This document shows, piece after piece, positions 36,953 through 41,517 of a stretch of DNA of 64,000 nt. This stretch comes from a bacterium (lineage in GTDB: Bacteria; CAIWAD01): assembly GCA_030429345.1 (NCBI GenBank), contig JAUIFJ010000022.1:11230-75229 (forward strand), read 5' to 3'. Both the position numbers and the translations under genes were made by a program. Within the stretch, counting starts at the first letter, position 1. Each line of letters starts with the position of its first letter. The notes below the pieces were generated by a model, which worked only from the letters and a program-made list of their open reading frames with translations, did not search any database and was not told where the DNA came from.

Positions 36953-37459
36953 ATGGACAGGATCTGGGCGCCCTGGCGCATGGCCTACTTGAGCGGCGAA
37001 GAGAAACCCCGTCGCGAAGGCTGCATTTTCTGCTGGAAGCCCCTGGAAGGGGAGGACGAGGCCAACCTGATCCTCGAGCGGCGCGAGCACTGCTTCACCC
37101 TGATGAACCTCTACCCCTACAGCAATTCGCACCTGATGGTGGTGCCCTACCGTCACACGGCGGACTTCACCTCCCTTTCCGCCGGGGAGCTGCTCGATTG
37201 CCAGCAGGGCATTGTCCGCGTGATCCAGGTGCTGAAGGACTCGGTGGATCCCCAGGGCTTCAATGTGGGCATGAACATGGGCCAGGCCGGCGGCGCCGGC
37301 ATTGCGGCCCACCTGCACTGGCATGTGGTGCCCCGCTGGAATGGCGACACCAATTTTATGCCTGTCACCGGCGGCACGAAGGTGATTTCCGAGTCGATCC
37401 AGGAAGGCTACCAGCGTCTCAAGGCCGCCTGGCACGGCAAGGACCGGGACGAAGGCTAG
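36953..37459 (+). CDS. HIT-family nucleotide hydrolase/phosphorylase
   Basis: 168-aa histidine-triad protein with the catalytic HLHWHVVPRW motif near residue 120. The N-terminal MDRIWAPWRMAYLSG and the CIFCWKP zinc-type pair mark the Ap4A-phosphorylase-like bacterial group, and NSHLMVVPYRHTADF is the conserved strand before the active site. Likely substrates are dinucleoside polyphosphates or adenylylated metabolites. It lies after a strong terminator, and its leader includes GGGACGG upstream of the ATG. It precedes the selenoprotein operon by about 100 bases. Confidence 0.9.
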   Translation: MDRIWAPWRMAYLSGEEKPRREGCIFCWKPLEGEDEANLILERREHCFTLMNLYPYSNSHLMVVPYRHTADFTSLSAGELLDCQQGIVRVIQVLKDSVDPQGFNVGMNMGQAGGAGIAAHLHWHVVPRWNGDTNFMPVTGGTKVISESIQEGYQRLKAAWHGKDRDEG

Positions 37460-37568
37460 CCCTGTCGGACAAAGGCGATCGTCCGCCCGGATCTCCTTAC
37501 ATTCTGCTCATACTCGTAGTGGCGGCCCGCCTCTGGCCGCCGATTCGGCAGGAACCAGGAGGATGTCC

Positions 37569-38606
37569 ATGATGTTTCGACCCCGCCTTGGTCGGGCCCT
37601 GACCGCTCTGATCTGTTTGAGCTCGTCGGCCCTGGCCTTCGACTGGCAGGAGCACGGTTTTACCGACAATGCCGAGCAGGCCCTGGCCCGCGCTTCTTCC
37701 GAACAGAAACTGCTCTTTGTCGATTTCCAGACCGAATGGTGAAGCTGGTGTCGTCGGCTGGAAGCCGATGTCTTCGCCACCGAAGCCTTCCGCGAAGGAG
37801 CCTCCGACTGGGTGCTGCTCAGCCTGGACGCGGAGAAAAGCGCCCTGGGGCCCGAATGGGCCCGAAAATTCAACGTGCGCGGATTTCCGACCTCGATCCT
37901 GCTCAATCCCGACGGCACGGAGATCGATCGCGTTTCCGGCTACGCTCCCATGCCGCGCTTCCTGGAGGTCTTCCAGGGCTACGCCCGCGGCGAAGGCACC
38001 CTGGACGCCCTGCAGGAAGAGCTGGCCGCGTCGCCGGATGACCTGGAGCTGAGTTTCCATGTGGTCAACAAGCTCGAGGCCCGCGGGGCCGATGGCTGGC
38101 AGGAGCTGGCCCGCGACATTCTGCGCCGCGACCCCGGCAACGAGAGCGGTTTCGCCAGTTCGGCGGACGCCCTGCTGGTGCAGGCGGCCTATCGCGCCGA
38201 TTCGGACCCCGCGCACCTGGAAGGGCTCTGCGAGCGCTGGCCGGGCAGCGAGGAAAGCCTGAATGCCCACAATCGCCTGGTCACCGTCTACCGCCGCGCG
38301 GAGAATCCCGAAAAGGCCCGTGAGCATCTGAAGGCGATCTACGCGGGCTTTGGCGACAATGCCCAGGCCCTCAACAGCTTCGCCTGGATCTGCGGAGAAA
38401 TGGACTGGAACCTGAAAGAAGCGCTGCGCGCCGCCCACGAGGCCGTGCGCCTGGTGCCCGGCGACGCCAATGTCCTGGACACCCTGGCCGAGCTGCAATG
38501 GAAGAACGGGCAGAAGGAGAAAGCGCTGGCGACCATCGGACAGGCCCTCGAGCTGGATCCTGCCAACGACTACCTCAAAGAGCAGCAGAAGAAATTCAGG
38601 GAGTAG
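37569..38606 (+). CDS. Thioredoxin-fold selenoprotein (in-frame TGA = Sec58) with TPR tail
   Basis: 345-residue exported thioredoxin-like protein. An AGGAGG site (37557-37562) sits six bases before the ATG at 37569. The signal peptide ends at ALA (residue 23). The thioredoxin fold begins EQALARASSEQKLLFVDFQTEW, then comes an in-frame TGA at 37740-37742 (position 58), then SWCRRLEADVF. The site therefore reads W-U58-S-W-C61, exactly where relatives have WCGWCK. The fold continues with FNVRGFPTSILLNPDGTE, and TPR-like repeats occupy about residues 150-340. The frame stays open for 288 codons after the TGA, and a hairpin follows the codon. TGA is a stop for many other genes here, so context-dependent selenocysteine is the best reading. 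A nonsense mutation is the alternative. DUF3467, FadL and GDSL genes follow. Confidence 0.8.
37747..37781 (+). promoter_or_regulatory. Candidate bacterial SECIS hairpin
   Basis: Counting the T of TGA as 1, the apical stem is TCGGCT (15-20) with AGCCGA (24-29) around loop GGA (21-23). An outer stem GGTG (8-11) can pair with CACC (39-42). The apical loop lies about 21 nucleotides from the codon and contains G residues, within the spacing known for SelB-binding elements. It is predicted by eye and energies were not computed. Confidence 0.55.
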
Positions 38607-38608
38607 GC

Positions 38609-38941
38609 ATGCAACGCGGACCGCAGATCAACATCAGCCTCGAGGACGACGTGGCCATGGGCAGCTACGCCAATCTGGGGCTGGTCAATTTCAGCGCCGC
38701 CGAGTTCGTGCTCGATTTTGCCCGGGTCATGCCGGGCACGCCGCGAGCGCGCATCCTGGATCGCGTCATCATGACGCCGGCGCACGCCAAGGCCCTGCAG
38801 CGCAACCTGGAGGACGCCCTCAAGCGCTACGAGGCCGCCCACGGGGAGATCCGCGTGGGAGGCCAGCCGGCCGAGGAGAAGTATTTCGGCTTTCGCACTC
38901 CCATGGATGAGGGCGAAGCTTCAGCAGAGGAGAAGCGATGA
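38609..38941 (+). CDS. DUF3467-family protein
   Basis: 110-aa cytoplasmic protein with the DUF3467 pattern: INISLEDDVAMGSYANLGLVNFSAAEFVLDFARVMPGTPRARILDRVIMTPAHAKALQRNLEDALKRYEAAHGEI. The domain fills residues 5-80; the rest is an acidic tail. The function is unknown; homologues are widespread in FCB bacteria and proteobacteria. It begins 2 bases after the selenoprotein stop and ends in an ATGA overlap with the FadL-type gene, so all three should be co-translated. Confidence 0.8.
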   Translation: MQRGPQINISLEDDVAMGSYANLGLVNFSAAEFVLDFARVMPGTPRARILDRVIMTPAHAKALQRNLEDALKRYEAAHGEIRVGGQPAEEKYFGFRTPMDEGEASAEEKR

Positions 38942-40185
38942 ACAGCAGAATCACCGGGTCGATCCTTTGTGTGACGGCCCTGGCTTCGTCGGCCCTGTCG
39001 GCCGGCTTCGCCATTTCCGAGCAGTCGCCCGCCGCCATGGGCACGGCCGGAGCCTACAGCGCGGCGCAGTCCGCCTCGTCCATCTACTACAATCCCGCGG
39101 GCATCGCCGGCCTCTCCGGCCGCAATTTCGAGGGCGATGTACACATCCTGATGCCGAGCACGGACCTGACCGGTCCCACCAACCGGCCGGGCTACCGCAC
39201 GGAGTCGATGGAAAGCGAGACCTTCGTCGTCCCGGGCTTGTTCTACGCCCACGAACTGAGCGGCGGCCACACCATGGGGCTCGGCGTCTTCGCCTATATG
39301 GGCCTGGGCGTCACCTGGGAGGAGGACTGGGTCGGCCGCGAGGAGATCGAGGAGATCGGCCTGCAGGCGATCACGGTCAATCCCACCTGGGGATACCGCC
39401 TGAAGGACAACCTGCGCGTCGGGGCGGGACTTTCCGTGACACACGGGGACGTGCATCTCAGCCGTGACACATACAGCGGCGGCGCCTTCAACACCTATAT
39501 CGACGCCGACATGGAAGGCGCGGGCTGGGCCTTCGGCTACAACCTGGGCTTGCAGTACGACATGGACGAGAAGACCACCTTCGCCCTCAGCTGGCGCAGC
39601 CCGATCACGCTGGCCGGGGAAGGCGAGGCCGAGTTCAGCTGGCCCGAACTGGACAATCCGACCCAGCAGGGCCTGCTCAGCGCCCAGTTCCCGACCACGG
39701 ACCTGAACCTGGACGTGGAGATGCCCGGCATCCTGATGGCCGGCGTGAGCCACAAGCTGAACCCCCAGCTGGTGCTGCGCGGCGATTTCGTCCTCTCCAC
39801 CTGGAGCGCCTACGAGGAGCTCTACTTCGATTTCGAGACCGAGACCAGCCTGCTGCAGGACAGCCGCAGTCCCAAGGAATACGAGGACACCATGGCCCTG
39901 CGCCTGGGCGGCGAGTGGCAGATGAACCCGGCGACCATCCTGCGGTTCGGCTATTATTACGAGGAAGAGGCGGTCAAGGACGAGCTGGTCGAGCCCAGCC
40001 TGCCCGACGGCGCCCGCAACGGCTTCTCCGTGGGCATGGGCTACGCCCTGAAGGGCAACCAGATGCTGGATGTCTACTTCCTGCTGGTCAGCCTGCAGGC
40101 CCGCGAGAGCACCTTCGCCTCCTTCCCCGGCGTATACGAGACGAGCATTCCCATCCTCGGACTGGGCTGGTCCAAGAGCTTCTAG
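38938..40185 (+). CDS. OmpP1/FadL-family outer-membrane transporter
   Basis: 415-aa outer-membrane channel for hydrophobic compounds. The signal peptide ends at SALSA, and the mature N-terminus GFAISEQSPAAMGTAGAYSAAQSASSIYYNPAGIAGL is the classic FadL hatch with the NPA motif. Alternating barrel strands run to the end, with an aromatic final residue (LGLGWSKSF, C-terminal Phe), the BAM recognition signal. It is coupled to DUF3467 by ATGA and followed 9 bases later by a GDSL lipoprotein. This suggests uptake and hydrolysis of a lipid or ester, which is inference. Confidence 0.92.
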   Translation: MNSRITGSILCVTALASSALSAGFAISEQSPAAMGTAGAYSAAQSASSIYYNPAGIAGLSGRNFEGDVHILMPSTDLTGPTNRPGYRTESMESETFVVPGLFYAHELSGGHTMGLGVFAYMGLGVTWEEDWVGREEIEEIGLQAITVNPTWGYRLKDNLRVGAGLSVTHGDVHLSRDTYSGGAFNTYIDADMEGAGWAFGYNLGLQYDMDEKTTFALSWRSPITLAGEGEAEFSWPELDNPTQQGLLSAQFPTTDLNLDVEMPGILMAGVSHKLNPQLVLRGDFVLSTWSAYEELYFDFETETSLLQDSRSPKEYEDTMALRLGGEWQMNPATILRFGYYYEEEAVKDELVEPSLPDGARNGFSVGMGYALKGNQMLDVYFLLVSLQARESTFASFPGVYETSIPILGLGWSKSF

Positions 40186-40194
40186 GAGACTTCC

Positions 40195-41517
40195 ATGAGT
40201 CGCATTCGACTGCATCACATTGCCCTGGTCGGCCTGCTCTTCGCCTGGGGCTGCGGGGACGAGGACAGCATTCCCTCCATCCCCAACTACGAGAACCCGG
40301 CAAGCTCGGCGCAGGATTTCGGCGCCTACGCGGCCATCGGCAACAGCCTGACGGCCGGCTTCCAGAGCGGCGCCTGGGGCAATCCGGATCACATCGAGTA
40401 CAGCTTCCCCAACCAGCTGGCGCGGGCCCTGGGGATCGAGAACTTCGACCAGGTCGCGCTGGGCGGCACGGGCCTGGCCAGTGTCACAGTCGACGGGGCG
40501 CCCGTCGGCAACCAGGTGCTCAACTTCGACGCCAGCGGGAACTCCAGCGTGTCCTATTCGCCCATCGATTCGCTGGCCCTCTTCACCCTGCAGACTGTCG
40601 GCGCGGACATCTCCTTTGCCGCGCCGCGCAATTTCGGCATTCCCGGCATCACGCTGCTCGGCGCGACCCAGCCGCTGACGGCGGTGCAGCCGCTGATCCC
40701 CTACGCCGGCGCCTACATGAATGCCACCAGCGCTTCCCTGAGCCAGATCGACCTGGTGGCCCAGCAGGCCAACGCGGATTTCATCACGCTCTGGCTGGGC
40801 AACAACGATGTGCTCGGTTTCGTGACCGCGGGCGGCGTGCCGGCGGCCTTCGGCGGCCAGGACATCAGCGACGCCACCCTCTTCAGCGGCGCCTATGCCT
40901 ACGCGCTCAATGCCTTCGCGACCACGGAGTACATTGTCGCGCTGAACATTCCCGACATCAATTCGATTCCCTACGTGACCTATCCCAACGCGGTCCTTGG
41001 CAGCCTGGGGGTCACACAGCTGATGGGCACGGACCTGGCGGGCAACACGGTGCCGGTCGACCTGTCCCAGGACTTCGTGCTGCTGAGCGCCCTTTCCACC
41101 CTGCAGGCGGACCTGCTGGACAACGGCGCGCAGGACACACCCCTGGGACCGCAGTATGTGCTCGACGCGAGCGAAGCCGCCGCCGCCCAGGCCGCCGTCG
41201 ACGAGTTCAACACGCGCATCGCCGCGACCATCGACCAGTTCAACACCGGTCGCCAGGGCAACCAGTCGCCGATCCTGCTGGTGGACATGAACAGCTTTTT
41301 CAGCGAGGTCACACAGAACGGCGTGATGGCCGGAGGCAACACATTGACCACCACCTACGCCACCGGCGGGCTCTTCAGCCTGGACGGCATCCATCCCAGT
41401 TCCCTGGGCTATGCCGTCGTCGCCAACAAGGTCATCGAGACGATGAACGAAGGCTGGGGCCGCAGCATCGAGCCCATCGACCTAGAAAGCCTCTTCGGCG
41501 TCGCGCCGGGAATGTAG
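40195..41517 (+). CDS. SGNH/GDSL hydrolase lipoprotein
   Basis: 440-aa surface or periplasmic lipoprotein (lipobox FAWGC, Cys20). Block I reads AAIGNSLTAGFQ (catalytic Ser). An oxyanion Gly in QVALGGTGLASV, the block III Asn in TLWLGNNDVLGF, and the block V Asp-His in DGIHPSSLGYAVVANK complete the SGNH set. It probably hydrolyses esters or lipids. It pairs with the FadL-type channel directly upstream, a combination seen elsewhere in FCB genomes. A palindromic GTAGGGG element with a T-run follows 25 bases after the stop and may serve as the terminator. Confidence 0.88.
   Translation: MSRIRLHHIALVGLLFAWGCGDEDSIPSIPNYENPASSAQDFGAYAAIGNSLTAGFQSGAWGNPDHIEYSFPNQLARALGIENFDQVALGGTGLASVTVDGAPVGNQVLNFDASGNSSVSYSPIDSLALFTLQTVGADISFAAPRNFGIPGITLLGATQPLTAVQPLIPYAGAYMNATSASLSQIDLVAQQANADFITLWLGNNDVLGFVTAGGVPAAFGGQDISDATLFSGAYAYALNAFATTEYIVALNIPDINSIPYVTYPNAVLGSLGVTQLMGTDLAGNTVPVDLSQDFVLLSALSTLQADLLDNGAQDTPLGPQYVLDASEAAAAQAAVDEFNTRIAATIDQFNTGRQGNQSPILLVDMNSFFSEVTQNGVMAGGNTLTTTYATGGLFSLDGIHPSSLGYAVVANKVIETMNEGWGRSIEPIDLESLFGVAPGM

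Follow-up and report, generated by a model that had tools for sequence, protein, structure and literature searches.

The gene at positions 37569 to 38606 on the forward strand of the window, the 64,000-nucleotide stretch of DNA that was analysed, very probably encodes a selenoprotein in which the UGA at 37740 to 37742 is read as selenocysteine (Sec). The predicted product, 345 residues including U58, is a putatively exported protein that joins a thioredoxin fold with a UxxC motif to a TPR tail. Comparison with relatives shows the recoding site together with the co-occurring Sec machinery, and statistical tests support a role for a SECIS-like hairpin downstream of the UGA.

The frame contains a single internal stop, the TGA at codon 58, in the context W-TGA-S-W-C. 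This agrees with the original prediction that the TGA falls exactly on the first cysteine of a CxxC motif, and alignment with homologues likewise assigns U58 to the first position of UxxC (U58-S-W-C61), with C61 as the resolving cysteine. The 57 codons counted upstream of the TGA stand, and the 288 given for the downstream portion are corrected to 287 sense codons. A Shine-Dalgarno-like AGGAGG (37557 to 37562) precedes the ATG by 6 nt, and the hydrophobic stretch and ALA end of the first ~24 residues, MMFRPRLGRALTALICLSSSALA (37569 to 37640), suggest by eye an N-terminal signal peptide; these residues are modelled with low confidence. The thioredoxin domain (37662 to 37975) is DsbD-gamma-like and matches Pfam Thioredoxin_2 (44.5 bits against a curated cut-off of 27) and Thioredoxin_7 (40.8 bits). 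The TPR tail was also borne out, with matches to TPR_14 and TPR_2 over residues 232 to 333 (38260 to 38600) and a modelled helical array running from residue 130 through the C-terminus (pLDDT of 84.8 for the thioredoxin and TPR model). The codon-position bias in G+C is maintained both 5' and 3' of the TGA. The coding status of the frame beyond the TGA is taken from homology, since a long open frame is poor evidence at 65.6% G+C. A truncated product might in theory arise from initiation at a GTG at 37812.

The gene lies between a HIT-domain gene upstream (36953 to 37459) and, downstream, genes for a DUF3467 protein (38609 to 38941), a FadL/TodX outer-membrane transporter (38938 to 40185) and a GDSL lipase/esterase (40195 to 41517), all on the forward strand; the three downstream neighbors had been named in the original prediction, to which the HIT gene is added. 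The order HIT, Trx-TPR, FadL, GDSL is conserved in two genomes of the same family (G002 and G003). When compared with these two, only the window's genome carries a DUF3467 gene between the selenoprotein gene and FadL.

Recurrence of the UGA and the selenocysteine machinery

The two same-family genomes encode full-length orthologues with 44 to 47% identity on both sides of the Sec site, and both orthologues read WCGWC, with TGC as the cysteine codon. Both genomes also carry selA, so that relatives able to decode Sec include both Cys and Sec forms. A same-family MAG, sequence L039 (DYSB01000100.1), is titled Acetofilamentum (Bacteroidota) and is grouped in a small phylum of five genomes, so the name is perhaps doubtful.

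A first scan of genome contigs with a single sequence returned no match, and a scan of viral contigs returned no relatives. A profile built from the three orthologues and searched against 290 genomes recovered full-length relatives in other phyla, nine of which have TGA exactly at the first cysteine of CxxC and an intact frame beyond it, ending in a normal stop in every case except L076, which runs to a contig edge. Among eight of these Sec homologues scanned for domains, all eight matched thioredoxin models; TPR matches were clear in five and weak or absent in three, although the tail aligns nonetheless. A wider profile search found the family in 127 of the 132 sampled genomes of one phylum (that of G013), despite which gene callers that take UGA only as a stop would truncate or miss it. 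Of the approximately 155 matches listed for this phylum, about 90 have exactly one TGA, and none has TAA or TAG.

Across 107 distinct aligned homologues, the column of residue 58 holds 80 TGA codons, 26 cysteines and 1 serine, a TGA:Cys ratio that is biased by the preferential fetching of TGA-bearing matches, which leaves the positional concordance unaffected. No other TGA was found within the aligned spans of these homologues, and in a 12-row family alignment U/C58, C61 and P107 are invariant. The lone TAG counted in the alignment belongs to the locus of the window gene; given that the frame from 37569 to 38606 has no internal stop besides the TGA, this TAG is consistent with the gene's terminal stop at 38604 to 38606. 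The presence of the same UGA at the same position in relatives from many bacterial groups points to a genuine selenoprotein family.

The window's genome (4.24 Mb in 92 contigs, a draft that is 98% complete) contains the four components whose presence was to be checked. Its tRNA-Sec (selC) scores above the Rfam cut-off and has the anticodon tca, SelB is full length, and SelA is encoded on the same contig as SelB, approximately 1 kb away. SelD (contig C46, 5003 to 5920, minus strand) is itself a selenoprotein candidate, having an in-frame TGA at the catalytic cysteine position (CG-TGA-AAK(F)) and a hairpin whose loop, GGTC, lies 17 nt past the TGA, matching the spacing in the window gene. Selenoprotein forms of SelD are common, with the motif UxxK (PMC13188914). 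Among the genomes of the nine TGA-bearing relatives, SelA occurs in all nine and tRNA-Sec in eight; in the first ten TGA-bearing genomes, both were found in nine and SelA only in the tenth. An array of ~16 copies of the 12-bp unit TCCCTGGCACCG (1673 to 1863) lies some 75 bases away from the tRNA-Sec gene of the window's genome (L001, 1500 to 1597), and a similar repeat-like string occurs at the far end of L026, past the DsbD gene.

A single premature TGA without any further defect has the appearance of a young nonsense mutation, and the gene might thus be a pseudogene, otherwise intact, whose catalytic cysteine codon was recently lost. This is extremely improbable: a TGA stands at this codon in 79 more homologues, Sec machinery is complete in the genome, and the frame is intact, with codon-position bias on both of its sides. 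The recurrence of TGA at one column and the complete machinery support the earlier judgment that selenocysteine is likelier than a random nonsense mutation. A metagenome-type assembly, here a draft in 92 contigs, could conceivably show TGA in place of a true TGC, but the same error would have to be repeated at one codon in scores of independent assemblies, including the single-contig genomes G061, G406 and G407, and its probability is just as negligible.

Because the reading rests on DNA alone, UGA could also be decoded in some other manner, through general read-through or through reassignment to, for example, tryptophan or glycine. The residue aligned with the UGA, however, is cysteine and in one case serine, never tryptophan or glycine, and the genome encodes tRNA-Sec, SelA, SelB and SelD. 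Moreover, the absence of TGA elsewhere in the aligned family frames indicates that it does not serve as a sense codon in general, in keeping with the original view that genome-wide recoding is unlikely, and such decoding is only marginally less improbable than a mutation or an assembly error. Because 80 sequences share the TGA at a single column, we rejected a pseudogene, an assembly error and general UGA reassignment alike.

The hairpin downstream of the UGA

A SECIS-like hairpin spans positions 37746 to 37779 of the forward strand, with an upper stem of CGTCGGCT and AGCCGATG, a GGA loop and a lower stem of TGGTG and CGCCA. The original prediction of a hairpin with a G-containing loop thus stands, but its distance of ~21 nt does not: the loop starts 17 nt after the TGA. 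This places the apical loop within the 16 to 37 nt from the UGA that define a SECIS, with G among its first bases. A loose form of the SECIS rule is satisfied by 472 of the 1,463 TGAs in the window (32%), and the hairpin alone was therefore rejected as proof of Sec.

A strict form, with a stem of 8 bp and a G-containing loop at 16 to 25 nt, occurs at 16 of the 1,463 TGAs and in ~1.2% of synonymous recodings. Relative to such recodings of the window gene, a stem of equal length at the same distance arises in 1.2% and an equal energy in 4 to 10%; by size of the segment considered, the values are 1 to 4% of recodings for 41 nt and, for energy, 10% for 45 nt. The hairpin of the window gene is, on its own, moderately unusual.

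Across the family, hairpins of -5 kcal/mol or below, located 16 to 24 nt downstream and with a G as the first or second base of the loop, were present in 74 of the 80 Sec genes versus 10 of the 27 non-Sec homologues. Hairpin energies of the Sec genes surpassed those of synonymous recodings (Wilcoxon test, P = 4e-13, a value that overstates independence because the rows are related), and the non-Sec homologues displayed no such excess (P = 0.54, n = 27). The SECIS check thus returned a hairpin at SECIS distance in the window gene and, family-wide, structures that exceed codon-matched controls in the TGA-bearing genes only. Of the two Cys orthologues, L018 has a mismatch (A opposite A, as read by eye) that interrupts the stem of the window hairpin at one pair, and L017 can adopt a different stable fold with its loop at 16 nt.

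Known relatives and predicted function

Selenoproteins with a thioredoxin fold and a UxxC motif have long been known; what we have not found described is the fusion to TPR repeats and the spread of the family. The closest are the UxxC "thiol:disulfide interchange protein" selenoproteins (Trx-like 2; PF13098/cd02953), which appear in Table 1 of PMC13188914, in Table 2 of PMC2398784 and in PMC1794560, and of which few sequences had been listed (3 in 2006 and 22 in the GOS ocean samples). Like the window protein, these have a DsbD-gamma-like thioredoxin domain, Sec at the first position of UxxC and Cys homologues, but no TPR tail is mentioned for them (reference sequence WP_011366075) in the published texts searched. 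The suggestion that the setting of the window protein is singular was not upheld: the protein is one member of a broadly distributed family, and selenoproteins with this kind of thioredoxin domain are already on record.

Among NCBIfam models, none reached its cut-off for 11 members, comprising the window protein, two Cys orthologues and eight Sec homologues. The best matches included TsoB (NF045694), a selenoprotein resembling a rhodanese/DsbD fusion, whose C-terminal DsbD-like thioredoxin domain is the only part matched, at no more than 66 bits against a cut-off of 805; its Sec motif is listed as UxxxxU and no TPR is reported, in contrast to the UxxC and TPR of the present family. The Trx7/PDZ (seleno)protein NF041199 also joins Thioredoxin_7 to another domain, but has a CxxU motif and PDZ instead of TPR, and it gave a weak partial match in one Cys homologue (20.5 bits, cut-off 300). 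A search for published Trx-TPR selenoproteins found none in the literature covered, which includes few subscription journals, and the family apparently lacks an entry of its own in current catalogues.

In a fold search with the structure model, the first match was E. coli YbbN/CnoX (PDB 3qou), in which TPR repeats likewise follow a thioredoxin domain at the N-terminus, and the nearest thioredoxin domain, in both fold and sequence, was DsbD gamma. DsbD gamma is part of a membrane electron conduit, whereas the domain in the window protein is free-standing and linked to TPR. CnoX is cytosolic, probably unlike the window protein, and has SxxC or CxxC, with no Sec form mentioned (PMC6282202), and its domain arrangement in the overlay is unlike that of the window protein; the resemblance is one of layout and not of demonstrated kinship.

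The window protein is likely to act as a periplasmic disulfide reductase or isomerase with a layout analogous to that of cytosolic CnoX. At the UGA, SelB would supply the ribosome with Sec-tRNA-Sec, aided by the hairpin ~17 nt downstream, leading to insertion of Sec at residue 58, and the signal-peptide-like N-terminus would direct the protein out of the cytosol; by eye, its relatives L064 and L074 have lipobox-like ends. U58 would then serve as the nucleophile, C61 would resolve, and Pro107 would be the cis-proline. The targets may be disulfides, to be reduced or isomerized, or oxidized thiols, in envelope proteins held by the TPR tail, and the protein may be recharged by DsbD, a full homologue of which is encoded on contig C75 of the same genome. 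For the functional steps, namely export, the redox chemistry, the source of electrons and the holding of substrates by the TPR tail, this proposal is about as likely to be right as wrong.

A less probable alternative keeps the selenoprotein but assigns it a tentative role as a redox-regulated holdase or chaperone, resembling a chaperedoxin, or in the reduction of peroxides or metal(loid)s. Its Trx-TPR layout is that of CnoX, the top PDB match, and the Caulobacter form of CnoX is both a holdase and a reductase (PMC6282202). CnoX, however, passes its substrates to GroEL and DnaK in the cytosol (PMC6282202) but the window protein looks exported, and the whole-chain overlay on YbbN is poor (rmsd of 19.7, TM of 0.25). 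Returning to an exported disulfide reductase or isomerase, selenium use would extend to an envelope protein with a binding tail of its own. With moderate confidence, we regard the family as an uncatalogued exported thioredoxin-TPR family in which Sec is the usual state in numerous families of one or more bacterial phyla and repeatedly swaps with Cys elsewhere, and which may constitute a selenium-dependent, chaperedoxin-like redox system of the envelope.

Exchange of selenocysteine and cysteine

Sec and Cys have been swapped at least three times within the family. A tree of 21 members, built with the trait column masked and containing many poorly supported branches, requires six changes between the Sec and Cys states, at least three of which are forced by starred branches. 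A single clade or origin of Sec was rejected on the same 21-member tree (AU test, P = 1.8e-35). Close relatives with Sec and with Cys, some sharing a genome or a family, offer a natural test of what Sec contributes to a thioredoxin active site.

Other members depart from the common motif. In L095 (contig C282 of G210), serine replaces Sec or Cys (W-S-YSC), and the same genome contains a TGA-bearing member, L097. Two Trx-TPR genes stand in tandem in a Planctomycetota genome (L040, 5839 to 8479), and the second of them has lost the first cysteine of CxxC (TEGSDACR). A second TGA-bearing sub-group (L131, L141, L147 to L149, L151 and others) has the motif [DGE]-U-E-[YF]-C instead of W-U-x-W-C; its matches often extend longer into the tail, and in some genomes its members occur beside those with W-U-x-W-C.
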